Source of the DNA: Allacma fusca
Taxonomy: Eukaryota; Arthropoda; Collembola; Symphypleona; Sminthuridae
Assembly: GCA_947179485.1 (NCBI GenBank)
Contig: OX359247.1
Location: 63,663,001 to 63,727,000 of the forward strand
Reading direction: 5' to 3'
DNA: 64,000 nt
Shown: in pieces, positions 32,569 through 64,000 of the stretch
Layout: each line of letters starts with the position of its first letter
How positions within the stretch are numbered: position 1 is the stretch's first letter
Notes under the pieces: generated by a model
What the model saw: the letters and a program-made list of their open reading frames with translations, nothing else
What the model was told of the DNA's origin: nothing
Databases searched by the model: none
Translations under genes and position numbers: made by a program

Positions 32569-34021
32569 CTCAAAAATTCAAAATATGACTAGTATGTATA
32601 TAGCTATATAAAGTACGGGACATAACTTGATTTTTGTGTCACTAACAAATAACGTCTGAATCAAAGACGTTGTTGCAAATGTTACATCCTATAGGGGATG
32701 TATTGTAAAATTTAATTTAAAACGTCTACCGGTTCTTTGCAAATCGAATTCTGTTCCACATTTTATATATTTATAACCGTTTAGTCCATGAAATTATTTG
32801 TTCGGCTTTGTCTGAAAGTTATGTCTCAAACATTTTGCTACATGTATACAATCAATTAATGGAAGAGTTTTTCAATTTGAATGGTCAATTATAACTAAAA
32901 TATTCGAACTGGATAACACCGTATTAAAAAATCAATATTTCGAGCTATAACTTACACGATCGTCCGCATTATCTAGAGTAGGTCTTAGATTTCATTGCTG
33001 GAGTTAAAAGTTTTTCAGCTAAATTATTTTATTCTAACAAATGTTGTTTTACGCTCAAAAATTCAAAATATGACTAGTATGTATATAGCTATATAAAGTA
33101 CGGGACATAACTTGATTTTTGTGTCACTAACAAATAACGTCTGAATCAAAGACGTTGTTGCAAATGTTACAACTTATAGGGGATTTATTGTAAAATTTAA
33201 TTTAAAACGTCTACCCTCTCTTTGCAAGTCGAATTCTGTTTCACATTTTATATATTTATAACCGTTTAGACCATGAAATTATTTGTTCGGCCCTGGTCTG
33301 AAGGTTATGTCTCAAATATTTTGCTTCATGTATACAATCAATTAATGGAAGAGTTTTTCAATTTGAATTGTCAATTAAAACTAAAAAATTTCTAACTGGA
33401 TAACACCGTATAAAAAAATCAATATTTCGAGCTATAACTTACACGATCGTCCGCATTATCTAGAGTAGGTCTTAGATTTCATTGCTGGAGTTAAACATTT
33501 ATCAGTTTAAATATTTTATTCTAACAAATGTTGTTTTACGCTCAAAAATTCAAAATATGACTAGTATGTATATAGCTATATAAAGTACGGGACATAACTT
33601 GATTTTTGTATCACTAACAAATAACATCTGAATCAAAGACGTTTTTGCAAATTTTACATCTTATTGGGGGTTTATTTTAGATTAAAAAACGTCTACCCGT
33701 TCTTTGCAAATCGAATTCTGTTTTATATTTTTTTATATATAAAAGTTTAGTCGATGAAATGATTTGTTCTTCCCTGGTCTGAAGGTTATGTCTCAAACAT
33801 TTTGCTACATGTATACAATCAATTAATGGAAGAGTTTTTCAATTTGAATTGTCAATTATAACTAAAAAATTTCTAACTGGATAACACCGTATTAAAAAAT
33901 CAATATTTCGAGCTATAACTTACACGATCGTCCGCATTATCTAGAGAAGGTCTTAGATTTCATTGCTGGAGTTAAAAGTTTTTCAGCTAAAATATTTTAT
34001 TCTAACAAATGTTGTTTTACG

Positions 34022-40000: not shown

Positions 40001-43000
40001 ACGTTTAGTCGATGAAATGATTTGTTCGTCCATGGTCTGAAGGTTATGTCTCAAACATTTTTTAACATGTATACAATCAATTGATGGAAGAGTTTTTCAA
40101 TTTAAATTGTCAATTATAACTAAAAAATTTCTAACTGGACAACACCGTATTAAAAAATCAATATTTCGAGCTATAACTTACACGATCGTCCGCATTATCT
40201 AGAGTAGGTCTTAGATTTCATTGCTGGAGTTAAACATTTATCAGTTTAAATATTTTATTCTAATAAATGTTGTTTTACGCTCAAAAGTTCAAAATATGAC
40301 TAGTATGTATATAGCTATATAAAGTATCGGAAATAACTTGATTTTTGTGTCACTAACAAATAACGTCTGAATCAAAGACGTATTTGCAAATTTTACATTT
40401 TATTGGGGGTTTATTTTAGAATAAAAAACGTCTACCCGTTCTTTGAAAATCGAATTCTGTTTTATATTTTATATATATAAACGTTTAGTCGATGAAATGA
40501 TTTGTTCGTCCCTGGTCTGAAGGTTATGTCTCAAACATTTTTTAACATGTATACAATCAATTGATGGAAGAGTTTTTCAATTTAAATTGTCAATTATAAC
40601 TAACAAATTTCTAACTGGACAACACCGTATTAAAAAATCAATATTTCGAGCTATAACTTACACGATCGTCCGCATTATCTAGAGTAGGTCTTAGATTTCA
40701 TTGCTGGAGTTAAACATTTATCAGTTTAAATATTTTATTCTAATAAATGTTGTTTTACGCTCAAAAGTTCAAAATATGACTAGTATGTATATAGCTATAT
40801 AAAGTACGGGACATAACTTGATTTTTGTGTCACTAACAAATAACGTCTGAATCAAAGACGTTGTTGCAAATGTTACATCTTATAGGGGATTTATTGTAAA
40901 ATTTAATTTAAAACGTCTACCGGTTCTTTGCAAATCGAATTCTTTTCCACATTTTATATATTTATAACCGTTTAGTCCATGAAATTATTTGTTCGGCTTG
41001 GTCTGAAGGTTATGTCTCAAACATTTTGCTACATGTATACACTCAATTAATGGAAGAGTTTTTCAATTTGAATTGTCAATTATAACTAAAATATTTCTAA
41101 CTGGATAACACCGTATTAAAAAATCAATATTTCGAGCTATAACTTACACGATCGTCCGCATTATCTAGAGTAGGTCTTAGATTTCATTGCTGGAGTTAAA
41201 CATTTATCAGTTTAAATATTTTATTCTAATAAATGTTGTTTTACGCTCAAAAGTTCAAAATATGACTAGTATGTATATAGCTATATAAAGTATCGGAAAT
41301 AACTTGATTTTTGTGTCACTAACAAATAACGTCTGAATCAAAGACGTATTTGCAAATTTTACATTTTATTGGGGGTTTATTTTAGAATAAAAAACGTCTA
41401 CCCGTTCTTTGAAAATCGAATTCTGTTTTATATTTTATATATATAAACGTTTAGTCGATGAAATGATTTGTTCGTCCCTGGTCTGAAGGTTATGTCTCAA
41501 ACATTTTTTAACATGTATACAATCAATTGATGGAAGAGTTTTTCAATTTAAATTGTCAATTATAACTAAAAAATTTCTAACTGGACAACACCGTATTAAA
41601 AAATCAATATTTCGAGCTATAACTTACACGATCGTCCGCATTATCTAGAGTAGGTCTTAGATTTCATTGCTGGAGTTAAACATTTATCAGTTTAAATATT
41701 TTATTCTAATAAATGTTGTTTTACGCTCAAAAGTTCAAAATATGACTAGTATGTATATAGCTATATAAAGTATCGGAAATAACTTGATTTTTGTGTCACT
41801 AACAAATAACGTCTGAATCAAAGACGTATTTGCAAATTTTACATTTTATTGGGGGTTTATTTTAGAATAAAAAACGTCTACCCGTTCTTTGAAAATCGAA
41901 TTCTGTTTTATATTTTATATATATAAACGTTTAGTCGATGAAATGATTTGTTCGTCCCTGGTCTGAAGGTTATGTCTCAAACATTTTTTAACATGTATAC
42001 AATCAATTGATGGAAGAGTTTTTCAATTTAAATTGTCAATTATAACTAACAAATTTCTAACTGGACAACACCGTATTAAAAAATCAATAGTTCGAGCTAT
42101 AACTTACACGATCGTCCGCATTATCTAGAGTAGGTCTTAGATTTCATTGCTGGAGTTAAACATTTATCAGTTTAAATATTTTATTCTAACAAATGTTGTT
42201 TTACGCTCAAAAGTTCAAAATATGACTAGTATGTATATAGCTATATAAAGTACGGGACATAACTTGATTTTTGTGTCACTAACAAATAACGTCTGAATCA
42301 AAGACGTTGTTGCAAATGTTACATCTTATAGGGGATTTATTGTAAAATTTAATTTAAAACGTCTACCGGTTCTTTGCAAATCGAATTCTTTTCCACATTT
42401 TATATATTTATAACCGTTTAGTCCATGAAATTATTTGTTCGGCTTGGTCTGAAGGTTATGTCTCAAACATTTTGCTACATGTATACACTCAATTAATGGA
42501 AGAGTTTTTCAATTTGAATTGTCAATTATAACTAAAATATTTCTAACTGGATAACACCGTATTAAAAAATCAATATTTCGAGCTATAACTTACACGATCG
42601 TCCGCATTATCTAGAGTAGGTCTTAGATTTCATTGCTGGAGTTAAAAGTTTTTCAGCTAAAATATTTTATTCTAACAAATGTTGTTTTACGCTCAAAAAT
42701 TCTAAATATGACTAGTATGTATATAGCTATATAAAGTATGGGAAATAACTTGATTTTTGTGTCACTAACAAATAACGTCTGAATCAAAGACGTTTTTGCA
42801 AATTTTACATTTTATTGGGGGTTTATTTTAGAATAAAAAACGTCTACCCGTTCTTTGAAAATCGAATTCTGTTTTATATTTTATATATATAAACGTTTAG
42901 TCGATGAAATGATTTGTTCGTCCATGGTCTGAAGGTTATGTCTCAAACATTTTTTAACATGTATACAATCAATTGATGGAAGAGTTTTTCAATTTAAATT

Positions 43001-44131
43001 GTCAATTATAACTAAAAAATTTCTAACTGGACAACACCGTATTAAAAAATCAATATTTCGAGCTATAACTTACACGATCGTCCGCATTATCTAGAGTAGG
43101 TCTTAGATTTCATTGCTGGAGTTAAACATTTATCAGTTTAAATATTTTATTCTAATAAATGTTGTTTTACGCTCAAAAGTTCAAAATATGACTAGTATGT
43201 ATATAGCTATATAAAGTATCGGAAATAACTTGATTTTTGTGTCACTAACAAATAACGTCTGAATCAAAGACGTATTTGCAAATTTTACATTTTATTGGGG
43301 GTTTATTTTAGAATAAAAAACGTCTACCCGTTCTTTGAAAATCGAATTCTGTTTTATATTTTATATATATAAACGTTTAGTCGATGAAATGATTTGTTCG
43401 TCCATGGTCTGAAGGTTATGTCTCAAACATTTTTTAACATGTATACAATCAATTGATGGAAGAGTTTTTCAATTTAAATTGTCAATTATAACTAAAAAAT
43501 TTCTAACTGGACAACACCGTATTAAAAAATCAATATTTCGAGCTATAACTTACACGATCGTCCGCATTATCTAGAGTAGGTCTTAGATTTCATTGCTGGA
43601 GTTAAACATTTATCAGTTTAAATATTTTATTCTAATAAATGTTGTTTTACGCTCAAAAGTTCAAAATATGACTAGTATGTATATAGCTATATAAAGTATC
43701 GGAAATAACTTGATTTTTGTGTCACTAACAAATAACGTCTGAATCAAAGACGTATTTGCAAATTTTACATTTTATTGGGGGTTTATTTTAGAATAAAAAA
43801 CGTCTACCCGTTCTTTGAAAATCGAATTCTGTTTTATATTTTATATATATAAACGTTTAGTCGATGAAATGATTTGTTCGTCCATGGTCTGAAGGTTATG
43901 TCTCAAACATTTTTTAACATGTATACAATCAATTGATGGAAGAGTTTTTCAATTTAAATTGTCAATTATAACTAAAAAATTTCTAACTGGACAACACCGT
44001 ATTAAAAAATCAATATTTCGAGCTATAACTTACACGATCGTCCGCATTATCTAGAGTAGGTCTTAGATTTCATTGCTGGAGTTAAACATTTATCAGTTTA
44101 AATATTTTATTCTAACAAATGTTGTTTTACG
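34022..44131. repeat. Satellite array with 4-unit and 3-unit higher-order blocks (21 units)
   Basis: Unit starts: 34022, 34502, 34982, 35462, 35948, 36428, 36908, 37388, 37874, 38354, 38834, 39320, 39800, 40280, 40760, 41246, 41726, 42206, 42692, 43172, 43652. A 486-bp B-type unit (gttgcaaatgttac) starts at 35462, 37388, 38834, 40760 and 42206, and again at 44132 as a 485-bp mosaic. Between them lie two or three 480-bp C-type units. Spacings are therefore 1926, 1446, 1926, 1446 and 1926 bp. The C units follow an order: first 'aaaaattctaaatatg' with cgtccatgg, last 'aaaagttcaaaatatg' with tatcgg, gacgtatttgc, cgtccctgg and often 'actaacaaat'. Neighbouring blocks are almost identical, making this the most homogenised part of the window. 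Confidence 0.9.
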
Positions 44132-46063
44132 CTCAAAAGTTCAAAATATGACTAGTATGTATATAGCTATATAAAGTACGGGACATAACTTGATTTTTGT
44201 GTCACTAACAAATAACGTCTGAATCAAAGACGTTGTTGCAAATGTTACATCTTATAGGGGATTTATTGTAAAATTTATTTTAAAACGTCTACCCGTTCTT
44301 TGCAAATCGAATTCTGTTTAACATTTTTAATATATAAACCTTAAGTCGATGAAATTATTTGTTCGTCACTGGCCTGAAGGATATGTCTCAAAAATTTTTT
44401 AACATGTATACAATAGTTAAATGGAAGAGTTTTTCAATTTGGATTGTCAATTATAACTAAAAAATTTCTAACTGGATAACACCGTATTAAAAAATCAATA
44501 TTTCGAGCTATAACTTACACGATCGTCCGCATTATCTAGAGTAGGTCTTAGATTTCATTGCTGGAGTTAAAAGTTTTTCAGCTAAAATATTTTATTCTAA
44601 CAAATGTTGTTTTACGCTCAAAAATTCTAAATATGACTAGTATGTATATAGCTATATAAAGTATGGGAAATAACTTGATTTTTGTGTCACTAACAAATAA
44701 CGTCTGAATCAATGACGTTTTTGTAATTTTACATTTTATTGGGGGTTTATTTTAGAATAAAAAACGTCTACCCGTTCTTTGAAAATCGAATTCTGTTTTA
44801 TATTTTATATATATAAACGTTTAGTCGATGAAATGATTTGTTCGTCCCTGGTCTGAAGGTTATGTCTCAAACATTTTTTAACATGTATACAATCAATAAA
44901 TGGAAGAGTTTTTCAATTTAAATTGTCAATTATAACTAACAAATTTCTAACTGGACAACACCGTATTAAAAAATCAATATTTCGAGATATAACTTACACG
45001 ATCGTCCGCATTATCTAGAGTAGGTCTTAGATTTCATTGCTGGAGTTAAACATTTATCAGTTTAAATATTTTATTCTAACAAATGTTGTTTTACGCTCAA
45101 AAGTTCAAAATATGACTAGTATGTATATAGCTATATAAAGTACGGGACATAACTTGATTTTTGTGTCACTAACAAATAACGTCTTAATCAAAGACGTTGT
45201 TGCAAATGTTACATCTTATAGGGGATTTATTGTAAAATATAATTTAAAACGTCTACCCGTTCTTTGCAAATCGAATTCTGTTTGACATTTTATATATTTA
45301 TAACCGTTTAGTCCATGAAATTATTTGTTCGGCCCTGGTCTGAAGGTTATGTCTCAAACATTTTGCTACATGTACACAATCAATTAATGGAAGAATTTTT
45401 CAATTTAAATTGTCAATTATAACTAAAAAATTTCTAACTGGATAACACCGCATTAAAAAATCAATATTTCGAGCTATAACTTACACGATCGTCCGCATTA
45501 TCTAGAGTAGGTCTTAGATTTCATTGCTGGAGTTAAACATTTATCAGTTTAAATATTTTATTCTAACAAATGTTGTTTTACGCTCAAAAGTTCAAAATAT
45601 GACTAGTATGTATATAGCTATATAAAGTACGGGACATAACTTGATTTTTGTGTCACTAACAAATAACGTCTGAATCAAAGACGTTGTTGCAAATGTTACA
45701 TCTTATAGGGGATTTATTGTAAAATTTATTTTAAAACGTCTACCCGTTCTTTGCAAATCGAATTCTGTTTAACATTTTTAATATATAAACCTTAAGTCGA
45801 TGAAATTATTTGTTCGTCACTGGCCTGAAGGATATGTCTCAAAAATTTTTTAACATGTATACAATAGTTAAATGGAAGTTTTTCAATTTGGATTGTCAAT
45901 TATAACTAAAAAATTTCTAACTGGATAACACCGTATTAAAAAATCAATAGTTCGAGCTATAACTTACACGATCGTCCGGTTTATCTAGAGTAGGTCTTAG
46001 ATTTCATTGCTGGAGTTAAGTTTTTCAGTTAAAATATTTTATTTTATCAAATGTTGTTTTACG
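44132..46063. repeat. Mosaic satellite units linking the B/C array to the A/B/C higher-order array
   Basis: Four units start at 44132, 44617, 45096 and 45583. The first begins as B-type (gttgcaaatgttac, ggggatttattg), switches to A-type around 44300 (aaccttaagtcgatg, cactggcctgaaggatatg) and returns to B-type by about 44490 (tatttcgagc, cgcattatctagag). The second is C-type with the private changes 'gaatcaatgacg' and a shortened 'ttgtaatttt'. The third is B-type. The fourth starts B-type and ends A-type (tagttcgagc, cggtttatctagag). Such mosaics are the expected product of crossover or gene conversion between subfamilies. No gene is seen. Confidence 0.85.
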
Positions 46064-46377
46064 CTCAAAAATTCTAAATTTGACTAGTATGTATATAGCT
46101 ATATAAAGTACGGGACATAACTTGATTTTTGTGTCATTAACAAATAACGTCCGAATCAAAGACGTTGTTTCAATTGTTACATCTTATTGGGGGTTTATTT
46201 TAGAATTAAAAACGTCTACCCGTTCTTTGCAAATCGAAATCTTTTTAACATTTTAATATATATAAACCTTAAGTCGATGAAATGATTTGTTCGTCACTGG
46301 TCTGAAGGTTACGTCTGAAAAAGTTTGCTACATGTATACAATCATTAAATGGAAGAGTTTTTCAATTTGAATTGTCA

Positions 46378-46385
46378 ATTACAAC
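46378..46385. repeat. Target-site duplication ATTACAAC, left of transposon copy 1
   Basis: Direct repeat of the 8 bases at 48306-48313. The undisrupted sequence 'caattacaactac' occurs in empty A-type units (for example 63247-63254), which confirms that these 8 bases were duplicated on insertion. Confidence 0.95.
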
Positions 46386-46648
46386 CAGTGCTCGGACTGG
46401 GTACGGGTAATACTCGGGTAAATGGGTACGGGTACAGGTATGGGTACTACCCGGGTACAGAAGTTGCGTACTCGCAAGTACGTGGGTACTACCCACGTAC
46501 TCTTGATTTTAGGCAATAAAGTGGGTACAGGTACGGGTACGGGTATGGGTACTCACTCAGTGGCAATCGGGTAGTACCCAATGGGTACGGGTATCACTAT
46601 GTAAAATGCCTGTACCCGTGGGTGCTGTACCCGAGTATTTTGGGGTAC
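46386..46648. repeat. Left subterminal GGGTAC-rich region of the transposon (shown for copy 1)
   Basis: About 260 bp densely filled with GGGTAC, GGGTAT and GTACCC hexamers, much more G+C-rich than the satellite. Includes a palindrome TACCCGGGTA and a perfect inverted repeat with 12-bp arms and a 1-base spacer at 46477-46501 (arm AGTACGTGGGTA). The same layout starts at 48793, 53134, 55541 and 58915. Clustered short subterminal motifs are typical transposase-binding regions in hAT elements; that role is inferred here. Confidence 0.8.
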
Positions 46649-48052
46649 TTCAAGGGTTCCTGATGGGATGGATTACTATGGCTAACAATAAGACCTACCA
46701 ACCGTGGAGTTGCTTATTTCGTAGTATACAGATACTTGCGTTAGTGACAGAGCCAAGTGGCTTCGTCTCATTTATGATTACGTGTTAGTTGCAATCTACC
46801 CTTCTAATAATTCATCCAAGGAATCTAATAAAGAAATAGAGCGTAGAGTCAGTGAAATCATCTGTTTATCGACTTAAATAGTGAAGCTCATCAACGAAGA
46901 ATTTCAAGAGTGAAGTTCTTGGGATTCAATTTAATTATCTTCATTGGGAGCGTAACATTACAATTATTTGAAGACGTATTACGAGATAAGATCGGAATAA
47001 ATATACACGAGCACAGCACAGCCAGCATTTGCTGGCTCAGAAAGGCAAATGTAAATAGGGAAGGCAGTAAATAGTTGTATATGCAATAGCTAGCTGCACA
47101 GCTATGCTCGTCGATACAGCTAGAGCGCGCGAATATTTGATTTTTACCATCACGACCACGGTCACGGTCGCGGACACGGACACTATCCACTCGCTCAAAT
47201 TAGAAGAGAGGATTTATTAGCAGATCCATTTCTTAACGTTACAAGTACCCAGGGTTGTCCATTTGAAAACGCCAAGGCATTTTATGCAGGCAATTTGAGC
47301 ATTTTCAGTTCTGGGTATTTATGACACTTTGAGTATTTATTGAGGTGAATATTTATAACATTTTAGACTGAAAAATATCATTCCTTGCACGCAATATTTA
47401 TATTTCAGTCCCTTTGATTAATCTTGATAATTTTGATGTTAAAAGAACTTGACAGACATCTGAACTTGGCGTTCAAAACTTCCATGGGGTTGCATTTTAG
47501 TCCTATTTTGCCTGCATTTTTCGAAAATCTCCGTCTCGGGCTTCATAAATGTGAGAGACAGTTTACGAATGTTTTTTTTATAAAGCTGTAGAAATATAAA
47601 ATGAATATTCAATATTGCCTCCCGCATTTATTTCCTGAAAAACAATATTTGACTTGGAAAAATTATGATCAACTCAATTTTTCCGTATAACATTTTCTAA
47701 ACACAGAGTTCGATTAGCCGGAAAAAAGATTGTTTCTTGTTCTCCAAGTTGAAAAGCAAGTTATGGAGAGTTTAGTATTAAAGAATCCGCCCCAATTCCA
47801 ATTAGTGAGAACACATTTCATTTTATTCAGCAAGTTATTATTTTGGGGTAGTAGGATTTGAATTTCGTCAGTGTAAAAATCCCAAAATGCCTTAAATAAT
47901 TTTTTCAAAAAATTCAAATAGGATGTCTTTAACGCCTAGGGAAAATTCCCAAAATCCCGGATACTTTTAATGGAGGTCAAAAAATTGACAACTTAAAATT
48001 TTTCAGCTGGGCAGGCTAATGTCGTCGGGGATTTTAAATCGGCCAAACTTCC
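46649..48052. other. Transposon interior without recognisable coding sequence (copy 1)
   Basis: About 1.4 kb of sequence unrelated to the satellite and free of GGGTAC clusters. I recognise no gene. The longest open frame is 99 codons on the minus strand (46891-47190). It and the other short frames are repeated only because the whole element is repeated, and none resembles a known domain. Small perfect stems are present, for example GCCAGCA/TGCTGGC at 47021-47036. It could be captured host DNA or badly decayed transposase sequence. Confidence 0.6.
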
Positions 48053-48305
48053 AGTACCCGAGTAATACCCGGGTACACACAATAGATACTCGGGTACGGG
48101 TACAGATTTTGGGTACATTACGGGTACGGGTAAATTGTGGGTACAGGTATTACATTGTATTTTCAGGTACGGGTACGGGTACTGAAATAATTTACCCGGG
48201 TACTCGGGTATGGGTACGGGTATAGGTACAGCATTTTGTAGTACCCGATATTCGGGTACGGGTATGGGTACGGGTACACGGTTTCTGTACCCAGTCCGAG
48301 CACTG
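48053..48305. repeat. Right subterminal GGGTAC-rich region of the transposon (shown for copy 1)
   Basis: About 250 bp of interspersed GGGTAC/GTACCC motifs ending in the inverted terminal repeat. Most hexamers read GGGTAC on the plus strand, the same direction as at the left end, so only the terminal 19 bp is a strict inverted repeat. The corresponding regions of the other copies end at 50713, 55053, 57460 and 60834. Confidence 0.8.
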
Positions 48306-48313
48306 ATTACAAC
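48306..48313. repeat. Target-site duplication ATTACAAC, right of transposon copy 1
   Basis: Second copy of the 8-bp duplication; the satellite unit resumes in phase directly after it with 'tacaaaatttctaac'. Confidence 0.95.
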
Positions 48314-48792
48314 TACAAAATTTCTAACTGGATAACACCGTATTAAAAAATCAATAGTTCGAGCTATAACTTACACGATCGTCCGGTTTATCTAGAGTAG
48401 GTCTTAGATTTCATTGCTGGAGTTCAGTTTTACAGTTAAAATATTTTATTTTAACAAATGTTATTTTACGCTCAAAAAGTCTAAATTTGACTAGTATGTA
48501 TATAGCTATATAAAGTACGGGACATAACTTGATTTTTGTGTCATTAACAAATAACGTCCGAATCAAAGACGTTGTTTCAATTGTTACATCTTATTGGGGG
48601 TTTATTTTAGAATTAAAAACGTCTACCCGTTCTTTGCAAATCGAAATCTTTTTAACATTTTAATATATATAAACCTTAAGTCGATGAAATGATTTGTTCG
48701 TCACTGGTCTGAAGGTTACGTCTGAAAAAGTTTGCTACATGTATACAATCATTAAATGGAAGAGTTTTTCAATTTGAATTGTCAATTACAAC

Positions 48793-50713
48793 CAGTGCTC
48801 GGACTGGGTACGGGTAATACTCGGGTAAATGGGTACGGGTACAGGTATGGGTACTACCCGGGTACAGAAGTTGCGTACTCGCAAGTACGTGGGTACTACC
48901 CACGTACTCTTGATTTTAGGCAATAAAGTGGGTACAGGTACGGGTACGGGTATGGGTACTCACTCAGTGGCAATCGGGTAGTACCCAATGGGTACGGGTA
49001 TCACTATGTAAAATGCCTGTACCCGTGGGTGCTGTACCCGAGTATTTTGGGGTACTTCAAGGGTTCCTGATGGGATGGATTACTATGGCTAACAATAAGA
49101 CCTACCAACCGTGGAGTTGCTTATTTCGTAGTATACAGATACTTGCGTTAGTGACAGAGCCAAGTGGCTTCGTCTCATTTATGATTACGTGTTAGTTGCA
49201 ATCTACCCTTCTAATAATTCATCCAAGGAATCTAATAAAGAAATAGAGCGTAGAGTCAGTGAAATCATCTGTTTATCGACTTAAATAGTGAAGCTCATCA
49301 ACGAAGAATTTCAAGAGTGAAGTTCTTGGGATTCAATTTAATTATCTTCATTGGGAGCGTAACATTACAATTATTTGAAGACGTATTACGAGATAAGATC
49401 GGAATAAATATACACGAGCACAGCACAGCCAGCATTTGCTGGCTCAGAAAGGCAAATGTAAATAGGGAAGGCAGTAAATAGTTGTATATGCAATAGCTAG
49501 CTGCACAGCTATGCTCGTCGATACAGCTAGAGCGCGCGAATATTTGATTTTTACCATCACGACCACGGTCACGGTCGCGGACACGGACACTATCCACTCG
49601 CTCAAATTAGAAGAGAGGATTTATTAGCAGATCCATTTCTTAACGTTACAAGTACCCAGGGTTGTCCATTTGAAAACGCCAAGGCATTTTATGCAGGCAA
49701 TTTGAGCATTTTCAGTTCTGGGTATTTATGACACTTTGAGTATTTATTGAGGTGAATATTTATAACATTTTAGACTGAAAAATATCATTCCTTGCACGCA
49801 ATATTTATATTTCAGTCCCTTTGATTAATCTTGATAATTTTGATGTTAAAAGAACTTGACAGACATCTGAACTTGGCGTTCAAAACTTCCATGGGGTTGC
49901 ATTTTAGTCCTATTTTGCCTGCATTTTTCGAAAATCTCCGTCTCGGGCTTCATAAATGTGAGAGACAGTTTACGAATGTTTTTTTTTATAAAGCTGTAGA
50001 AATATAAAATGAATATTCAATATTGCCTCCCGCATTTATTTCCTGAAAAACAATATTTGACTTGGAAAAATTATGATCAACTCAATTTTTCCGTATAACA
50101 TTTTCTAAACACAGAGTTCGATTAGCCGGAAAAAAGATTGTTTCTTGTTCTCCAAGTTGAAAAGCAAGTTATGGAGAGTTTAGTATTAAAGAATCCGCCC
50201 CAATTCCAATTAGTGAGAACACATTTCATTTTATTCAGCAAGTTATTATTTTGGGGTAGTAGGATTTGAATTTCGTCAGTGTAAAAATCCCAAAATGCCT
50301 TAAATAATTTTTTCAAAAAATTCAAATAGGATGTCTTTAACGCCTAGGGAAAATTCCCAAAATCCCGGATACTTTTAATGGAGGTCAAAAAATTGACAAC
50401 TTAAAATTTTTCAGCTGGGCAGGCTAATGTCGTCGGGGATTTTAAATCGGCCAAACTTCCAGTACCCGAGTAATACCCGGGTACACACAATAGATACTCG
50501 GGTACGGCTCCAGATTTTGGGTACATTACGGGTACGGGTAAATTGTGGGTACAGGTATTACATTGTATTTTCAGGTACGGGTACGGGTACTGAAATAATT
50601 TACCCGGGTACTCGGGTATGGGTACGGGTATAGGTACAGCATTTTGTAGTACCCGATATTCGGGTACGGGTATGGGTACGGGTACACGGTTTCTGTACCC
50701 AGTCCGAGCACTG
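48793..50713. mobile_element. Non-autonomous hAT-like transposon, copy 2 (1921 bp)
   Basis: Same element, same orientation and same position in the monomer as copy 1, exactly 2407 bp further on. Terminal repeats are at 48793-48811 and 50695-50713; duplications ATTACAAC are at 48785-48792 and 50714-50721. It differs by one extra T in a T run (nine at 49979-49987 against eight in the other copies) and by two substitutions at 50508 (G to C) and 50510 (A to C), which destroy one GGGTAC motif. I noticed no other differences by eye. It has no coding capacity. Confidence 0.92.
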
Positions 50714-53133
50714 ATTACAACTACAAAATTTCTAACTGGATAACACCGTATTAAAAAATCAATAGTTCGAGCTATAACTTACACGATCGTCCGGTTTATC
50801 TAGAGTAGGTCTTAGATTTCATTGCTGGAGTTCAGTTTTACAGTTAAAATATTTTATTTTAACAAATGTTATTTTACGCTCAAAAAGTCTAAATTTGACT
50901 AGTATGTATATAGCTATATAAAGTACGGGACATAACTTGATTTTTGTGTCATTAACAAATAACGTCCGAATCAAAGACGTTGTTTCAATTGTTACATCTT
51001 ATTGGGGGTTTATTTTAGAATTAAAGACGTCTACCCGTTCTTAGCAAATCGAATTCTGTTTAACATTTTTTAATATATAAACCTTAAGTCGATGAAATTA
51101 CTTGTTCGTCACTGGCCTGAAGGATATGTCTCAAAATCTTTTTAACATGTATACAATCATTAAATGGAAGAGTTTTTCAATTTGAATTGTCAATTATAAC
51201 TAAAATATTTCTAACTGGATAACACCGTATTAAAAAATCAATATTTCGAGCTATAACTTACACGATCGTCCGCATTATCTAGAGTAGGTCTTAGATTTCA
51301 TTGCTGGAGTTAAAAGTTTTTCAGCTAAAATATTTTATTCTAACAAATGTTGTTTTACGCTCAAAAATTCTAAATATGACTAGTATGTATATAGCTATAT
51401 AAAGTATGGGAAATAACTTGATTTTTGTGTCACTAACAAATAACGTCTGAATCAAAGACGTTGTTGCAAATGTTACAATTTATTGGGGATTTATTGTAAA
51501 ATTTAATTTAAAACGTCTACCGGTTCTTTGCAAATCGAATTCTGTTCCACATTTTATATATTTATAACCGTTTAGTCCATGAAATTATTTGTTCGGCTTG
51601 GTCTGAAGGTTATGTCTCAAACATTTTGCTACATGTATACAATCAATTAATGGAAGAGTTTTTCAATTTGAATTGTCAATTATAACTAAAATATTTCTAA
51701 CTGGATAACACCGTATTAAAAAATCAATATTTCGAGCTATAACTTACACCATCGTCCGCATTATCTAGAGTAGGTCTTAGATTTCATTGCTGGAGTTAAA
51801 AGTTTTTCAGCTAAAATATTTTATTCTAACAAATGTTGTTTTACGCTCAAAAATTCTAAATATGACTAGTATGTATATAGCAATATAAAGTATGGGAAAT
51901 AACTTGATTTTTGTGTCACTAACAAATAACGTCTGAATCAATGACGTTTTTGCAAATTTTACATTTTATTGGGTGGTTTATTTTAGAATAAAAAACGTCT
52001 ACCCGTTCTTTGAAAATCGAATTCTGTTTTATATTTTTATATATATAAACGTTTAGTCGATGAAATGATTTGTTCGTCCCTGGTCTGAAGGTTATGTCTC
52101 AAACATTTTTTAACATGTATACAATCAATAAATGGAAGAGTTTTTCAATTTAAATTGTCAATTATAACTAACAAATTTCTAACTGGACAACAGCGTATTA
52201 AAAAATCAATATTTCGGGATATAACTTACACGATCGTCCGCATTATCTAGAGTAGGTCTTAGATTTCATTGCTGGAGTTAAACATTTATCAGTTTAAATA
52301 TTTTATTCTAACAAATGTTGTTTTACGCTCAAAAGTTCAAAATATGACTAGTATGTATATAGCTATATAAAGTACGGGACATAACTTGATTTTTGTGTCA
52401 CTAACAAATAACGTCTGAATCAAAGACGTTGTTGCAAATGTTACATCTTATAGGGGATTTATTGTAAAATATAATTTAAAGACGTCTACCCGTTCTCAGC
52501 AAATCGAATTCTGTTTAACATTTTTAATATATAAACCTTAAAACGATGAAATTACTTGTTCGTCACTGGCCTGAAGGATATGTCTCAAACATTTTTTAAC
52601 ATGTATACAATAGTTAAATGGAAGAGTTTTTCAATTTGGATTGTCAATTATAACTAAAAAATTTCTAACTGGATAACACCGTATTAAAAAATCAATAGTT
52701 CGAGCTATAACTTACACGATCGTCCGGTTTATCTAGAGTAGGTCTTAGATTTCATTGCTGGAGTTAAGTTTTTCAGTTAAAATATTTTATTTTATCAAAT
52801 GTTGTTTTACGCTCAAAAATTCTAAATTTGACTAGTATGTATAAAGCTATATAAAACACGGGACATAACTTGATTTTTGTGTCATTAACAAATAACGTCC
52901 GAATCAAAGACGTTGTTTCAATTGTTACATCTTATTGGGGGTTTATTTTAGAATTAAAAACGTCTACCCGTTCTTTGCAAATCGAATTCTTTTTAACATT
53001 TTAATATATATAAACCTTAAGTCGATGAAATGATTTGTTCGTCACTGGTCTGAAGGTTACGTCTGAAAAAGTTTGCTACATGTATACAATCATTAAATGG
53101 AAGAGTTTTTCAATTTGAATTGTCAATTACAAC

Positions 53134-55053
53134 CAGTGCTCGGACTGGGTACGGGTAATACTCGGGTAAATGGGTACGGGTACAGGTATGGGTACTACCC
53201 GGGTACAGAAGTTGCGTACTCGCAAGTACGTGGGTACTACCCACGTACTCTTGATTTTAGGCAATAAAGTGGGTACAGGTACGGGTACGGGTATGGGTAC
53301 TCACTCAGTGGCAATCGGGTAGTACCCAATGGGTACGGGTATCACTATGTAAAATGCCTGTACCCGTGGGTGCTGTACCCGAGTATTTTGGGGTACTTCA
53401 AGGGTTCCTGATGGGATGGATTACTATGGCTAACAATAAGACCTACCAACCGTGGAGTTGCTTATTTCGTAGTATACAGATACTTGCGTTAGTGACAGAG
53501 CCAAGTGGCTTCGTCTCATTTATGATTACGTGTTAGTTGCAATCTACCCTTCTAATAATTCATCCAAGGAATCTAATAAAGAAATAGAGCGTAGAGTCAG
53601 TGAAATCATCTGTTTATCGACTTAAATAGTGAAGCTCATCAACGAAGAATTTCAAGAGTGAAGTTCTTGGGATTCAATTTAATTATCTTCATTGGGAGCG
53701 TAACATTACAATTATTTGAAGACGTATTACGAGATAAGATCGGAATAAATATACACGAGCACAGCACAGCCAGCATTTGCTGGCTCAGAAAGGCAAATGT
53801 AAATAGGGAAGGCAGTAAATAGTTGTATATGCAATAGCTAGCTGCACAGCTATGCTCGTCGATACAGCTAGAGCGCGCGAATATTTGATTTTTACCATCA
53901 CGACCACGGTCACGGTCGCGGACACGGACACTATCCACTCGCTCAAATTAGAAGAGAGGATTTATTAGCAGATCCATTTCTTAACGTTACAAGTACCCAG
54001 GGTTGTCCATTTGAAAACGCCAAGGCATTTTATGCAGGCAATTTGAGCATTTTCAGTTCTGGGTATTTATGACACTTTGAGTATTTATTGAGGTGAATAT
54101 TTATAACATTTTAGACTGAAAAATATCATTCCTTGCACGCAATATTTATATTTCAGTCCCTTTGATTAATCTTGATAATTTTGATGTTAAAAGAACTTGA
54201 CAGACATCTGAACTTGGCGTTCAAAACTTCCATGGGGTTGCATTTTAGTCCTATTTTGCCTGCATTTTTCGAAAATCTCCGTCTCGGGCTTCATAAATGT
54301 GAGAGACAGTTTACGAATGTTTTTTTTATAAAGCTGTAGAAATATAAAATGAATATTCAATATTGCCTCCCGCATTTATTTCCTGAAAAACAATATTTGA
54401 CTTGGAAAAATTATGATCAACTCAATTTTTCCGTATAACATTTTCTAAACACAGAGTTCGATTAGCCGGAAAAAAGATTGTTTCTTGTTCTCCAAGTTGA
54501 AAAGCAAGTTATGGAGAGTTTAGTATTAAAGAATCCGCCCCAATTCCAATTAGTGAGAACACATTTCATTTTATTCAGCAAGTTATTATTTTGGGGTAGT
54601 AGGATTTGAATTTCGTCAGTGTAAAAATCCCAAAATGCCTTAAATAATTTTTTCAAAAAATTCAAATAGGATGTCTTTAACGCCTAGGGAAAATTCCCAA
54701 AATCCCGGATACTTTTAATGGAGGTCAAAAAATTGACAACTTAAAATTTTTCAGCTGGGCAGGCTAATGTCGTCGGGGATTTTAAATCGGCCAAACTTCC
54801 AGTACCCGAGTAATACCCGGGTACACACAATAGATACTCGGGTACGGGTACAGATTTTGGGTACATTACGGGTACGGGTAAATTGTGGGTACAGGTATTA
54901 CATTGTATTTTCAGGTACGGGTACGGGTACTGAAATAATTTACCCGGGTACTCGGGTATGGGTACGGGTATAGGTACAGCATTTTGTAGTACCCGATATT
55001 CGGGTACGGGTATGGGTACGGGTACACGGTTTCTGTACCCAGTCCGAGCACTG
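53134..55053. mobile_element. Non-autonomous hAT-like transposon, copy 3 (1920 bp)
   Basis: Terminal repeats are at 53134-53152 and 55035-55053; duplications ATTACAAC are at 53126-53133 and 55054-55061. By eye the sequence matches copy 1. The left flank differs from copies 1, 2 and 4: the host unit has 'ataaaacacggg' where they have 'ataaagtacggg', and 'cgaattc' where they have 'cgaaatc'. It shares both of these with copy 5. Confidence 0.92.
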
Positions 55054-55540
55054 ATTACAACTACAAAATTTCTAACTGGATAACACCGTATTAAAAAATC
55101 AATAGTTCGAGCTATAACTTACACGATCGTCCGGTTTATCTAGAGTAGGTCTTAGATTTCATTGCTGGAGTTCAGTTTTACAGTTAAAATATTTTATTTT
55201 AACAAATGTTATTTTACGCTCAAAAAGTCTAAATTTGACTAGTATGTATATAGCTATATAAAGTACGGGACATAACTTGATTTTTGTGTCATTAACAAAT
55301 AACGTCCGAATCAAAGACGTTGTTTCAATTGTTACATCTTATTGGGGGTTTATTTTAGAATTAAAAACGTCTACCCGTTCTTTGCAAATCGAAATCTTTT
55401 TAACATTTTAATATATATAAACCTTAAGTCGATGAAATGATTTGTTCGTCACTGGTCTGAAGGTTACGTCTGAAAAAGTTTGCTACATGTATACAATCAT
55501 TAAATGGAAGAGTTTTTCAATTTGAATTGTCAATTACAAC

Positions 55541-57460
55541 CAGTGCTCGGACTGGGTACGGGTAATACTCGGGTAAATGGGTACGGGTACAGGTATGGGT
55601 ACTACCCGGGTACAGAAGTTGCGTACTCGCAAGTACGTGGGTACTACCCACGTACTCTTGATTTTAGGCAATAAAGTGGGTACAGGTACGGGTACGGGTA
55701 TGGGTACTCACTCAGTGGCAATCGGGTAGTACCCAATGGGTACGGGTATCACTATGTAAAATGCCTGTACCCGTGGGTGCTGTACCCGAGTATTTTGGGG
55801 TACTTCAAGGGTTCCTGATGGGATGGATTACTATGGCTAACAATAAGACCTACCAACCGTGGAGTTGCTTATTTCGTAGTATACAGATACTTGCGTTAGT
55901 GACAGAGCCAAGTGGCTTCGTCTCATTTATGATTACGTGTTAGTTGCAATCTACCCTTCTAATAATTCATCCAAGGAATCTAATAAAGAAATAGAGCGTA
56001 GAGTCAGTGAAATCATCTGTTTATCGACTTAAATAGTGAAGCTCATCAACGAAGAATTTCAAGAGTGAAGTTCTTGGGATTCAATTTAATTATCTTCATT
56101 GGGAGCGTAACATTACAATTATTTGAAGACGTATTACGAGATAAGATCGGAATAAATATACACGAGCACAGCACAGCCAGCATTTGCTGGCTCAGAAAGG
56201 CAAATGTAAATAGGGAAGGCAGTAAATAGTTGTATATGCAATAGCTAGCTGCACAGCTATGCTCGTCGATACAGCTAGAGCGCGCGAATATTTGATTTTT
56301 ACCATCACGACCACGGTCACGGTCGCGGACACGGACACTATCCACTCGCTCAAATTAGAAGAGAGGATTTATTAGCAGATCCATTTCTTAACGTTACAAG
56401 TACCCAGGGTTGTCCATTTGAAAACGCCAAGGCATTTTATGCAGGCAATTTGAGCATTTTCAGTTCTGGGTATTTATGACACTTTGAGTATTTATTGAGG
56501 TGAATATTTATAACATTTTAGACTGAAAAATATCATTCCTTGCACGCAATATTTATATTTCAGTCCCTTTGATTAATCTTGATAATTTTGATGTTAAAAG
56601 AACTTGACAGACATCTGAACTTGGCGTTCAAAACTTCCATGGGGTTGCATTTTAGTCCTATTTTGCCTGCATTTTTCGAAAATCTCCGTCTCGGGCTTCA
56701 TAAATGTGAGAGACAGTTTACGAATGTTTTTTTTATAAAGCTGTAGAAATATAAAATGAATATTCAATATTGCCTCCCGCATTTATTTCCTGAAAAACAA
56801 TATTTGACTTGGAAAAATTATGATCAACTCAATTTTTCCGTATAACATTTTCTAAACACAGAGTTCGATTAGCCGGAAAAAAGATTGTTTCTTGTTCTCC
56901 AAGTTGAAAAGCAAGTTATGGAGAGTTTAGTATTAAAGAATCCGCCCCAATTCCAATTAGTGAGAACACATTTCATTTTATTCAGCAAGTTATTATTTTG
57001 GGGTAGTAGGATTTGAATTTCGTCAGTGTAAAAATCCCAAAATGCCTTAAATAATTTTTTCAAAAAATTCAAATAGGATGTCTTTAACGCCTAGGGAAAA
57101 TTCCCAAAATCCCGGATACTTTTAATGGAGGTCAAAAAATTGACAACTTAAAATTTTTCAGCTGGGCAGGCTAATGTCGTCGGGGATTTTAAATCGGCCA
57201 AACTTCCAGTACCCGAGTAATACCCGGGTACACACAATAGATACTCGGGTACGGGTACAGATTTTGGGTACATTACGGGTACGGGTAAATTGTGGGTACA
57301 GGTATTACATTGTATTTTCAGGTACGGGTACGGGTACTGAAATAATTTACCCGGGTACTCGGGTATGGGTACGGGTATAGGTACAGCATTTTGTAGTACC
57401 CGATATTCGGGTACGGGTATGGGTACGGGTACACGGTTTCTGTACCCAGTCCGAGCACTG
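55541..57460. mobile_element. Non-autonomous hAT-like transposon, copy 4 (1920 bp)
   Basis: Lies 2407 bp after copy 3, so copies 3 and 4 repeat the tandem arrangement of copies 1 and 2. Terminal repeats are at 55541-55559 and 57442-57460; duplications ATTACAAC are at 55533-55540 and 57461-57468. The left flank (aaaaagtctaaat at the unit start, cgaaatc) matches that of copy 2. The right flank has a private change, 'ttatttcaac' for 'ttattttaac', near 57605. Confidence 0.92.
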
Positions 57461-58914
57461 ATTACAACTACAAAATTTCTAACTGGATAACACCGTATTA
57501 AAAAATCAATAGTTCGAGCTATAACTTACACGATCGTCCGGTTTATCTAGAGTAGGTCTTAGATTTCATTGCTGGAGTTCAGTTTTACAGTTAAAATATT
57601 TTATTTCAACAAATGTTATTTTACGCTCAAAAAGTCTAAATTTGACTAGTATGTATATAGCTATATAAAGTACGGGACATAACTTGATTTTTGTGTCATT
57701 AACAAATAACGTCCGAATCAAAGACGTTGTTTCAATTGTTACATCTTATTGGGGGTTTATTTTAGAATTAAAGACGTCTACCCGTTCTTAGCAAATCGAA
57801 TTCTGTTTAACATTTTTTAATATATAAACCTTAAGTCGATGAAATTACTTGTTCGTCACTGGCCTGAAGGATATGTCTCAAAATCTTTTTAACATGTATA
57901 CAATCATTAAATGGAAGAGTTTTTCAATTTGAATTGTCAATTATAACTAAAATATTTCTAACTGGATAACACCGTATTAAAAAATCAATATTTCGAGCTA
58001 TAACTTACACGATCGTCCGCATTATCTAGAGTAGGTCTTAGATTTCATTGCTGGAGTTAAAAGTTTTTCAGCTAAAATATTTTATTCTAACAAATGTTGT
58101 TTTACGCTCAAAAATTCTAAATATGACTAGTATGTATATAGCTATATAAAGTATGGGAAATAACTTGATTTTTGTGTCACTAACAAATAACGTCTGAATC
58201 AAAGACGTTGTTGCAAATGTTACAATTTATTGGGGATTTATTGTAAAATTTAATTTAAAACGTCTACCGGTTCTTTGCAAATCGAATTCTGTTCCACATT
58301 TTATATATTTATAACCGTTTAGTCCATGAAATTATTTGTTCGGCTTGGTCTGAAGGTTATGTCTCAAACATTTTGCTACATGTATACAATCAATTAATGG
58401 AAGAGTTTTTCAATTTGAATTGTCAATTATAACTAAAATATTTCTAACTGGATAACACCGTATTAAAAAATCAATATTTCGAGCTATAACTTACACCATC
58501 GTCCGCATTATCTAGAGTAGGTCTTAGATTTCATTGCTGGAGTTAAAAGTTTTTCAGTTAAAATATTTTATTTTATCAAATGTTGTTTTACGCTCAAAAA
58601 TTCTAAATTTGACTAGTATGTATAAAGCTATATAAAACACGGGACATAACTTGATTTTTGTGTCATTAACAAATAACGTCCGAATCAAAGACGTTGTTTC
58701 AATTGTTACATCTTATTGGGGGTTTATTTTAGAATTAAAAACGTCTACCCGTTCTTTGCAAATCGAATTCTTTTTAACATTTTAATATATATAAACCTTA
58801 AGTCGATGAAATGATTTGTTCGTCACTGGTCTGAAGGTTACGTCTGAAAAAGTTTGCTACATGTATACAATCATTAAATGGAAGAGTTTTTCAATTTGAA
58901 TTGTCAATTACAAC

Positions 58915-60834
58915 CAGTGCTCGGACTGGGTACGGGTAATACTCGGGTAAATGGGTACGGGTACAGGTATGGGTACTACCCGGGTACAGAAGTTGCGTAC
59001 TCGCAAGTACGTGGGTACTACCCACGTACTCTTGATTTTAGGCAATAAAGTGGGTACAGGTACGGGTACGGGTATGGGTACTCACTCAGTGGCAATCGGG
59101 TAGTACCCAATGGGTACGGGTATCACTATGTAAAATGCCTGTACCCGTGGGTGCTGTACCCGAGTATTTTGGGGTACTTCAAGGGTTCCTGATGGGATGG
59201 ATTACTATGGCTAACAATAAGACCTACCAACCGTGGAGTTGCTTATTTCGTAGTATACAGATACTTGCGTTAGTGACAGAGCCAAGTGGCTTCGTCTCAT
59301 TTATGATTACGTGTTAGTTGCAATCTACCCTTCTAATAATTCATCCAAGGAATCTAATAAAGAAATAGAGCGTAGAGTCAGTGAAATCATCTGTTTATCG
59401 ACTTAAATAGTGAAGCTCATCAACGAAGAATTTCAAGAGTGAAGTTCTTGGGATTCAATTTAATTATCTTCATTGGGAGCGTAACATTACAATTATTTGA
59501 AGACGTATTACGAGATAAGATCGGAATAAATATACACGAGCACAGCACAGCCAGCATTTGCTGGCTCAGAAAGGCAAATGTAAATAGGGAAGGCAGTAAA
59601 TAGTTGTATATGCAATAGCTAGCTGCACAGCTATGCTCGTCGATACAGCTAGAGCGCGCGAATATTTGATTTTTACCATCACGACCACGGTCACGGTCGC
59701 GGACACGGACACTATCCACTCGCTCAAATTAGAAGAGAGGATTTATTAGCAGATCCATTTCTTAACGTTACAAGTACCCAGGGTTGTCCATTTGAAAACG
59801 CCAAGGCATTTTATGCAGGCAATTTGAGCATTTTCAGTTCTGGGTATTTATGACACTTTGAGTATTTATTGAGGTGAATATTTATAACATTTTAGACTGA
59901 AAAATATCATTCCTTGCACGCAATATTTATATTTCAGTCCCTTTGATTAATCTTGATAATTTTGATGTTAAAAGAACTTGACAGACATCTGAACTTGGCG
60001 TTCAAAACTTCCATGGGGTTGCATTTTAGTCCTATTTTGCCTGCATTTTTCGAAAATCTCCGTCTCGGGCTTCATAAATGTGAGAGACAGTTTACGAATG
60101 TTTTTTTTATAAAGCTGTAGAAATATAAAATGAATATTCAATATTGCCTCCCGCATTTATTTCCTGAAAAACAATATTTGACTTGGAAAAATTATGATCA
60201 ACTCAATTTTTCCGTATAACATTTTCTAAACACAGAGTTCGATTAGCCGGAAAAAAGATTGTTTCTTGTTCTCCAAGTTGAAAAGCAAGTTATGGAGAGT
60301 TTAGTATTAAAGAATCCGCCCCAATTCCAATTAGTGAGAACACATTTCATTTTATTCAGCAAGTTATTATTTTGGGGTAGTAGGATTTGAATTTCGTCAG
60401 TGTAAAAATCCCAAAATGCCTTAAATAATTTTTTCAAAAAATTCAAATAGGATGTCTTTAACGCCTAGGGAAAATTCCCAAAATCCCGGATACTTTTAAT
60501 GGAGGTCAAAAAATTGACAACTTAAAATTTTTCAGCTGGGCAGGCTAATGTCGTCGGGGATTTTAAATCGGCCAAACTTCCAGTACCCGAGTAATACCCG
60601 GGTACACACAATAGATACTCGGGTACGGGTACAGATTTTGGGTACATTACGGGTACGGGTAAATTGTGGGTACAGGTATTACATTGTATTTTCAGGTACG
60701 GGTACGGGTACTGAAATAATTTACCCGGGTACTCGGGTATGGGTACGGGTATAGGTACAGCATTTTGTAGTACCCGATATTCGGGTACGGGTATGGGTAC
60801 GGGTACACGGTTTCTGTACCCAGTCCGAGCACTG
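58915..60834. mobile_element. Non-autonomous hAT-like transposon, copy 5 (1920 bp)
   Basis: Terminal repeats are at 58915-58933 and 60816-60834; duplications ATTACAAC are at 58907-58914 and 60835-60842. By eye it matches copies 1, 3 and 4. The left host unit carries the same 'ataaaacacggg' variant as copy 3. Unlike copies 1 and 3, it is not followed directly by another inserted unit. Confidence 0.92.
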
Positions 60835-62932
60835 ATTACAACTACAAAATTTCTAACTGGATAACACCGTATTAAAAAATCAATAGTTCGAGCTATAACT
60901 TACACGATCGTCCGGTTTATCTAGAGTAGGTCTTAGATTTCATTGCTGGAGTTCAGTTTTACAGTTAAAATATTTTATTTTAACAAATGTTATTTTACGC
61001 TCAAAAAGTCTAAATTTGACTAGTATGTATATAGCTATATAAAGTACGGGACATAACTTGATTTTTGTGTCATTAACAAATAACGTCCGAATCAAAGACG
61101 TTGTTTCAATTGTTACATCTTATTGGGGGTTTATTTTAGAATTAAAGACGTCTACCCGTTCTTAGCAAATCGAATTCTGTTTAACATTTTTTAATATATA
61201 AACCTTAAGTCGATGAAATTACTTGTTCGTCACTGGCCTGAAGGATATGTCTCAAAATCTTTTTAACATGTATACAATCATTAAATGGAAGAGTTTTTCA
61301 ATTTGAATTGTCAATTATAACTAAAATATTTCTAACTGGATAACACCGTATTAAAAAATCAATATTTCGAGCTATAACTTACACGATCGTCCGCATTATC
61401 TAGAGTAGGTCTTAGATTTCATTGCTGGAGTTAAAAGTTTTTCAGCTAAAATATTTTATTCTAACAAATGTTGTTTTACGCTCAAAAATTCTAAATATGA
61501 CTAGTATGTATATAGCTATATAAAGTATGGGAAATAACTTGATTTTTGTGTCACTAACAAATAACGTCTGAATCAAAGACGTTGTTGCAAATGTTACAAT
61601 TTATTGGGGATTTATTGTAAAATTTAATTTAAAACGTCTACCGGTTCTTTGCAAATCGAATTCTGTTCCACATTTTATATATTTATAACCGTTTAGTCCA
61701 TGAAATTATTTGTTCGGCTTGGTCTGAAGGTTATGTCTCAAACATTTTGCTACATGTATACAATCAATTAATGGAAGAGTTTTTCAATTTGAATTGTCAA
61801 TTATAACTAAAATATTTCTAACTGGATAACACCGTATTAAAAAATCAATATTTCGAGCTATAACTTACACCATCGTCCGCATTATCTAGAGTAGGTCTTA
61901 GATTTCATTGCTGGAGTTAAAAGTTTTTCAGCTAAAATATTTTATTCTAACAAATGTTGTTTTACGCTCAAAAATTCTAAATATGACTAGTATGTATATA
62001 GCAATATAAAGTATGGGAAATAACTTGATTTTTGTGTCACTAACAAATAACGTCTGAATCAATGACGTTTTTGCAAATTTTACATTTTATTGGGGGTTTA
62101 TTTTAGAATAAAAAACGTCTACCCGTTCTTTGAAAATCGAATTCTGTTTTATATTTTATATATATAAACGTTTAGTCGATGAAATGATTTGTTCGTCCCT
62201 GGTCTGAAGGTTATGTCTCAAACATTTTTTAACATGTATACAATCAATAAATGGAAGAGTTTTTCAATTTAAATTGTCAATTATAACTAACAAATTTCTA
62301 ACTGGACAACAGCGTATTAAAAAATCAATATTTCGAGATATAACTTACACGATCGTCCGCATTATCTAGAGTAGGTCTTAGATTTCATTGCTGGAGTTAA
62401 ACATTTATCAGTTTAAATATTTTATTCTAACAAATGTTGTTTTACGCTCAAAAGTTCAAAATATGACTAGTATGTATATAGCTATATAAAGTACGGGACA
62501 TAACTTGATTTTTGTGTCACTAACAAATAACGTCTGAATCAAAGACGTTGTTGCAAATGTTACATCTTATAGGGGATTTATTGTAAAATATAATTTAAAG
62601 ACGTCTACCCGTTCTCAGCAAATCGAATTCTGTTTAACATTTTTAATATATAAACCTTAAAACGATGAAATTACTTGTTCGTCACTGGCCTGAAGGATAT
62701 GTCTCAAACATTTTTTAACATGTATACAATCATTAAATGGAAGAGTTTTTCAATTTGAATTGTCAATTATAACTAAAAAATTTCTAACTGAATAACACCG
62801 TATTAAAAAATCAATAGTTCGAGCTATAACTTACACGATCGTCCGGTTTATCTAGAGTAGGTCTTAGATTTCATTGCTGGAGTTAAAAGTTTTTCAGCTA
62901 AAATATTTTATTCTAACAAATGTTGTTTTACG

Positions 62933-63411
62933 CTCAAAAATTCTAAATTTGACTAGTATATATATAGCTATATAAAACACGGGACATAACTTGATTTTTG
63001 TGTCATTAACAAATAACGTCCGAATCAAAGACGTTGTTTCAATTGTTACATCTTATTGGGGGTTTATTTTAGAATTAAAAACGTCTACCCGTTCTTTGCA
63101 AATCGAATTCTTTTTAACATTTTTATATATATAAACCTTAAGTCGATGAAATGATTTGTTCGTCACTGGTCTGAAGGTTACGTCTGAAAAAGTTTGCTAC
63201 ATGTATACAATCATTAAATGGAAGAGTTTTTCAATTTGAATTGTCAATTACAACTACAAAATTTCTAACTGGATAACACCGTATTAAAAAACCAATAGTT
63301 CGAGCTATAACTTACACGATCGTCCGGTTTATCTAGAGTAGGTCTTAGATTTCATTGCTGGAGTTCAGTTTTACAGTTAAAATATTTTATTTTAACAAAT
63401 GTTATTTTACG
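62933..63411. repeat. Satellite unit with the empty transposon target site
   Basis: This 479-bp unit has the uninterrupted 'caattacaactac' with ATTACAAC at 63247-63254. Its left part shares 'ataaaacacggg', 'cttttta' and 'gtctgaaaaagtttgc' with the units carrying insertions 3 and 5. Its right part shares 'gttcagttttacag' and 'gttattttacgctcaaaaagtc' with the right flank of all five insertions. It sits four units after insertion 5, where insertion 3 sits after insertion 2. It is therefore the direct empty counterpart of the inserted unit. No footprint of excision is visible. Confidence 0.85.
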
Positions 63412-64000
63412 CTCAAAAAGTCTAAATTTGACTAGTATGTATATAGCTATATAAAGTACGGGACATAACTTGATTTTTGTGTCATTAACAAATAACGTCC
63501 GAATCAAAGACGTTGTTTCAATTGTTACATCTTATTGGGGGTTTATTTTAGAATTAAAAACGTCTACCCGTTCTTTGCAAATCGAATTCTTTTTAACATT
63601 TTTATATATATAAACCTTAAGTCGATGAAATGATTTGTTCGTCACTGGCCTGAAGGATATGTCTCAAAATCTATTTAACATGTATACAATCATTAAATGG
63701 AAGAGTTTTTCAATTTGAATTGTCAATTATAACTAAAAAATTTCTAACTGGATAACACCGTATTAAAAATCAATACTTCGAGCTATAACTTACACGATCG
63801 TCCGGTTTATCTAGAGTAGGTCTTAGATTTCATTGCTGGAGTTAAGTTTTTCATTTAAAATATTTTGTTTTTACAAATGTTGTTTTACGCGCAAAAATTC
63901 TAAATTTGACTAGTATGTATATAGCTATATAAAGTACGGGACATAACTTGATTTTTGTGTCATTAACAAATAACGTCCGAATCAAAGACGTTGTTTCAAT
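62933..64000. repeat. Terminal A-type satellite units, last one cut by the window end
   Basis: Units start at 62933, 63412 and 63890; the last is truncated by the window after 111 bases. The first carries the uninterrupted transposon target site and is described separately. The array clearly continues past the right edge, and the left edge likewise begins inside the array. Confidence 0.95.

Follow-up and report, generated by a model that had tools for sequence, protein, structure and literature searches.

Five transposon copies at one position in a satellite

The window analyzed here is a 64,000-nucleotide stretch of the Allacma fusca genome (contig OX359247.1, positions 63,663,001 to 63,727,000; contig C10 of the 392.7-Mb assembly), most of which consists of a 480-bp satellite (1..64000, plus strand) belonging to an array of ∼109 kb that spans window coordinates -25590 to 83819. 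Within this array lie five copies of a hAT-like transposon, all in the same orientation, at the same position relative to the satellite, and bounded at both ends by the same 8-bp target site duplication (TSD), ATTACAAC. These copies almost certainly descend from a single insertion and were very probably multiplied by crossing-over-type exchange within the satellite.

The copies, all on the plus strand, are F1 (1920 bp; 46386..48305), F2 (1921 bp; 48793..50713), F3 (53134..55053), F4 (55541..57460), and F5 (58915..60834). Copies 1, 3, 4, and 5 are identical across 1920 bp, and copy 2 differs from them by 2 mismatches and 1 gap, namely, two private substitutions in a three-base stretch and a T run longer by one T. 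The left TSD occupies 46378..46385 in copy 1 and starts at 48785, 53126, 55533, and 58907 in the others; the right TSD occupies 48306..48313 in copy 1 and starts at 50714, 55054, 57461, and 60835 in the others (plus strand throughout). By these coordinates, successive copies are spaced 2407, 4341, 2407, and 3374 bp apart. The sequence-only reading of this DNA had described five near-identical copies that share position, orientation, and duplication, and the coordinates bear this description out. No further match longer than 100 bp was found within 100 kb on either side of the window, a span with 2,700 N bases outside the array. If 3e-9 to 1e-8 changes per site per generation are assumed, the differences in copy 2 alone give a rough age of some 2 to 7 x 10^4 generations, which homogenization would turn into an underestimate.

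Members of the hAT superfamily have short terminal inverted repeats (TIRs) with a CAGTG-like start, a pattern that the perfect 19-bp TIR of this element, CAGTGCTCGGACTGGGTAC, fits. GGGTAC repeats are present in subterminal position at both element ends. No Pfam family scored above its cutoff in the 10 element open reading frames scanned, of 16 listed, and the Rfam search returned nothing in 45800-48900 up to E = 1. The element is a hAT-like transposon that is probably non-autonomous and would be mobilized in trans by a hAT transposase.

Target site duplications and dispersed relatives

The satellite copies were compared with dispersed copies of the element elsewhere in the genome, for which 36 of 2,962 candidate places were scored (the window's own copies not included) and the ends were examined in 26 of the 36; L005 and L006, with their 5' parts missing, were dropped. 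Perfect 8-bp TSDs flank 24 of the 26 copies examined; all are different, and ATTACAAC is found among them on neither strand. The two exceptions are L037, the 5' end of which is missing, and L044, the left 8 bases of which equal those of L034, located 4.6 kb away on the opposite strand; L044 looks like part of an inverted duplication. Across the 25 TSDs (24 dispersed plus ATTACAAC), base composition is weakly biased, with A at position 7 in 17 and T at position 2 in 11, and ATTACAAC itself conforms to nTnnnnAn, the TSD consensus stated for Hermes in a passage of PMC2803484.

Within the array, ATTACAAC occurs 15 times, 10 of them as the elements' own TSDs, versus 150 occurrences of ATTATAAC. The 30-base junction of satellite, TSD, and element has five exact matches in the 392.7-Mb assembly, in which N stretches cannot match, and all five are in the window. 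Because there is one TSD and one junction here, against 24 different TSDs in the 26 dispersed copies, that a single insertion event took place can hardly be doubted. A departure from this pattern was sought and not seen: duplication and insertion base are common to the five copies, and their TSD recurs at none of the 26 dispersed ones. Two near-junctions, identical to each other and with 2 mismatches, are located 13.9 kb apart at C1:1331036 and C1:1344906 and perhaps represent a separate, duplicated hAT copy with the TSD ATTAGAAC.

Each satellite copy contains a nested 204-bp repeat at element positions 623-826 (47008..47211, minus strand, in F1; 49415-49618, 53756-53959, 56163-56366, and 59537-59740 in F2 to F5). 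This sequence is a repeat in its own right (40 places scored of 1,064 candidates in a genome search) and is found in 3 of the 36 scored dispersed places of the hAT-like element but not in the other 33. In all 11 copies read outside the hAT-like element, as at the site within it, the repeat has A to its left and AT to its right; insertion therefore occurs between A and T, with no target duplication. Helitrons begin with TC at the 5' end and have a hairpin just ahead of the 3' end, which canonically reads CTRR. On the minus strand, the 204-bp repeat starts with TCCTCTC and has a hairpin with a 7-bp stem 12 nt from the 3' end, in agreement with the first two features; because it ends in CTCG instead of CTRR, we term it Helitron-like without claiming membership. 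The order of nesting, from the outside in, is satellite, hAT-like element, and Helitron-like repeat. The 204-bp repeat also occurs in head-to-tail pairs with 2 bases between the members (C5:20234388-20234733, C1:41170933-41171278, and C10:12530200-12530545).

A tree of 31 element copies (5 satellite and 26 dispersed) was constructed from columns filled in at least 30% of the rows, excluding the 204-bp repeat, which only 8 of the 31 have. The tree joins the five satellite copies with L001, L002, and L003 (99/93), the three dispersed copies with the 204-bp repeat, and because the carriers group together, the repeat was probably gained once, as judged from these sequences. A 7-bp deletion is common to the satellite copies, L001, and L002. 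The nearest dispersed copy, L001 (C1:49086040), is set apart by three substitutions, all on the L001 side, and by one T of run length; one of the three substitutions recurs in 2 of 23 more distant copies. The branch uniting the five satellite copies has length 0, with a bootstrap value of 96 and a Shimodaira-Hasegawa-like approximate likelihood ratio test value of 0, and no substitution common to all five separates them from L001. It is improbable that the satellite-borne element can still transpose and that L001 is a daughter of a satellite copy, although several features fit this idea: four satellite copies have zero branch length to the node at which L001 joins them, the three separating substitutions are on the L001 side, and copy 2 has the 9-T run of L001. 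If this were true, amplification by the array would make the element a small reservoir.

Recombinant monomers and the amplified unit

The block of monomers and elements reads L1 F1 M1 F2 R2 a b c L3 F3 M2 F4 R4 a L5 F5 R5 a b c E6 E7, where L and R are left- and right-flank monomers, F is the element, M is a recombinant monomer, and a, b, and c complete an L-F-R-a-b-c unit (all on the plus strand). A set of 25 diagnostic columns separates L monomers (L1, 45899..46385; L3, at copy 3, 52647..53133) from R monomers (R2, 50714..51200; R4, 57461..57947; R5, 60835..61321). R2 and R5 are the same in sequence, and R4 shows one difference from both. Monomers a, b, and c following R2 occupy 51193..52654; the single monomer a following R4 (57940..58433) is identical to those at 51201 and 61322, and the c monomers following R2 and R5 differ at 4 of 478 positions.

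The two recombinant monomers, M1 (48306..48792, between F1 and F2) and M2 (55054..55540, between F3 and F4), have the same sequence, which is of R type at the 5' end and of L type at the 3' end: the first 7 of the 25 diagnostic columns carry the R state and the last 18 the L state, with the switch point confined to 144 alignment columns (177-320). This R-then-L order is the one needed between the right end of one element and the left end of the next, out of C(25,7)=480,700 possible orderings. Among 204 monomers over 400 nt in length (the remaining 9 of 213 pieces do not exceed 400 nt and were excluded), only these two, both between elements, have the M haplotype, and the other 202 all differ from it at more than two columns. 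M is the product expected of out-of-register recombination between a right flank and a left flank. The presence of such a recombinant between adjacent copies, together with the single TSD and junction, upholds the earlier proposal of one transposition and subsequent amplification by exchange within the satellite itself.

Larger blocks are repeated as well. F1-M1 and F3-M2 show no difference in their 2407 bp, and 3 substitutions and one T distinguish the 2.9 kb that come after them; a second duplication, of the doubled block, is therefore probable. The L-F-R-a-b-c unit recurs in register, with added F-M segments and partial losses; several monomer types are repeated in register, making this a higher-order satellite repeat with a transposon inside it. 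The basic amplified unit is this L-F-R-a-b-c segment of ∼4.34 kb, and the 2407 bp of F+M are the product of one unequal exchange. The 2407-bp composite unit of the sequence-only reading survives as the spacing in two of the four intervals and was rejected as a general unit because it is found in these two only. The monomer L5 (58426..58914) is a second chimera, of b type at 7 columns (14-121) and of L type at 33 columns from 133, with the switch between 121 and 133; 8 leading columns, a segment-end artifact, were excluded from this comparison. L5 marks a b-by-L exchange that shortened the array before copy 5.

The last two monomers, E6 and E7 (62766..63733), are an L-type and an R-type monomer that meet at a seamless, empty ATTACAAC site (63247). 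Across 167 bases, 130 to the left and 37 to the right of the TSD end, this site matches the joined flanks without a difference. Between E6 and the monomers L1, L3, and L5, 9 to 12 columns differ, and between E7 and R2, R4, and R5, 9 or 10; given these differences, an excision scar is less likely here than a paralogue that was never filled.

In the history that we consider very probable, a non-autonomous, hAT-like element from a sublineage with recent activity would have inserted once at ATTACAAC, at the boundary of an L-type and an R-type monomer in the 480-bp satellite array, and would then have been multiplied as passenger DNA. The ∼4.34-kb L-F-R-a-b-c unit would have undergone tandem duplication; an R and an L monomer would have recombined out of register to yield L-F-M-F-R, with M as the R/L recombinant; this block would have been duplicated again; and a later b-by-L exchange would have deleted about two monomers, leaving the chimera L5. 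The order of these events, and crossing-over instead of conversion or circle reinsertion as the process behind them, are what we infer from the arrangement of the blocks.

The alternatives differ mainly in how a single insertion would have spread. Recombination between R and L around one element would excise an F+M circle of 2407 bp, and its reinsertion by homology would produce L-F-M-F-R; F+M has precisely this length, and a circle of this kind must carry an R/L recombinant, which M is, but circles alone leave the 4.34-kb unit with a-b-c and the L5 contraction unexplained, whereas unequal crossing-over covers everything by one process, and this route is unlikely. Gene conversion into adjoining empty monomers likewise copies element and flank jointly, and the mosaic structure of E7 suggests that short tracts do move; however, multikilobase blocks agree in order (F1-M1 equals F3-M2, and monomer a is identical three times), M shows a single R-to-L switch as in a crossover product, and the spacing of the copies varies by whole monomers, all of which make conversion quite unlikely as the source of the copies. 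Duplication of at least one copy by the assembler could be suspected from the identity of F1-M1 and F3-M2 over 2407 bp in copies known from the assembly and not from reads, but differences from the respective counterparts are present in copy 2, in R4, in L1 and L3, and in the b and c monomers, and monomer composition differs among the intervals between copies, so that an artifact is very unlikely. Finally, five independent insertions into a preferred monomer site, for which one could cite the fit of ATTACAAC to the Hermes consensus nTnnnnAn (PMC2803484, in the passage noted above), the similar leaning of the dispersed TSDs, and a report of targeted LINE (long interspersed nuclear element)-lineage insertion in Cuscuta satellite monomers (in passages of PMC8091179), are next to inconceivable and were rejected, given that all five share a TSD that is a rare target variant (5 other sites, versus 150 of ATTATAAC), one orientation, a near-identical sequence, and shared flank blocks, that the TSD consensus is weak, and that M, found only between elements, would be left unexplained.

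Several observations weigh against insertion followed by crossing-over as set out above. E7 is itself a mosaic, so mosaics occur outside the element block too, although the M haplotype does not. The element sequences of the five copies vary too little for a tree of them to be tested against the flanks for congruence, and this comparison of element and flank trees was dropped as a test because four of the elements are identical. What unites the five relative to L001 is the TSD and the flanking sequence; substitutions within the element do not. The 9-T run common to copy 2 and L001 is absent from the other four copies, most likely through repeated slippage. In crossing-over, gene conversion, and reinsertion of a 2407-bp circle alike, the element moves along with its flank, and the three are not fully separated; the array structure is that of the assembly, not of raw reads. 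We favor crossing-over because of the multiblock structure.

Setting of the array and comparison with known systems

The two leftmost monomers of the array are inverted. The edges of the array are inverted modules, 96.8% identical over 1.3 kb (-26800..-25300, L021; 83600..85100, L010-L011), each with a short TTAGG-type tract ∼1.04 kb outside the array. A perfect telomere-type tract, (TAACC)567, occupies window coordinates -40879..-38044 (C10:63622121-63624956; L022-L023), ∼2.5 Mb from the end of the 66-Mb contig, and would be explained by an interstitial telomere, by a fusion, or by misjoining in the scaffold. Two more satellites, with 148-bp and 493-bp periods, are located nearby (-99999..-71942 and 120397..144088), and the one with the 493-bp period ends beside TAACC tracts. 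In the window itself, a-like and b-like monomers of the neighboring sub-array at 24224-45906 alternate in a higher-order pattern of their own.

Transposons inside tandem repeat units have precedents. A CR1 element is reportedly embedded in the chicken HinfI tandem repeat, as the title of that work has it; compared with that case, the element described here is a minority passenger, with five copies in a 109-kb array. In an array that is otherwise confusing to read, a transposon insertion serves as a unique tag, so that single out-of-register exchanges become readable: here, one exchange product, one contraction, and one intact empty site. No hAT element amplified in a satellite was recognized in the literature search results, which is not proof of absence, and reviews treat, in the parts available, transposons turned into tandem repeats (PMC6947457, PMC9659126).

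The mechanism itself is already known. In human alpha-satellite higher-order repeat arrays, L1HS and Alu insertions have been duplicated, and for D2Z1, passages of a preprint describe most mobile-element copies as consistent with duplications of one element (PMC11451754). That system, as presented there, involves retrotransposons and centromeric alpha satellite, whereas the present one involves a DNA transposon and a 480-bp satellite with a recombinant monomer that is still readable. In Cuscuta, as in A. fusca, many elements are found at recurrent positions of satellite monomers (CUS-TR24), which the relevant passages explain by target preference (PMC8091179); here, TSD and flank evidence points the opposite way. 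A further likeness is in the ant Messor bouvieri, where a DNA transposon, Mboumar, is also found in insect satellite DNA as five copies at one site, the same TA of different IRE-130 satellite copies (PMC2581405). There, the common insertion site was suggestive of a hot spot, and no sign of an intrinsic affinity emerged from in vitro tests; the Mboumar passages at hand contain no discussion of copying with the satellite (PMC2581405), whereas the flanking recombinants described here show such copying. Thus, the question raised by the ant mariner, whether identical satellite sites reflect a hot spot or copying, is answered for this case in favor of copying, and the A. fusca array is an unusually legible example of a mechanism known from the L1HS duplications in D2Z1 and perhaps from Mboumar.

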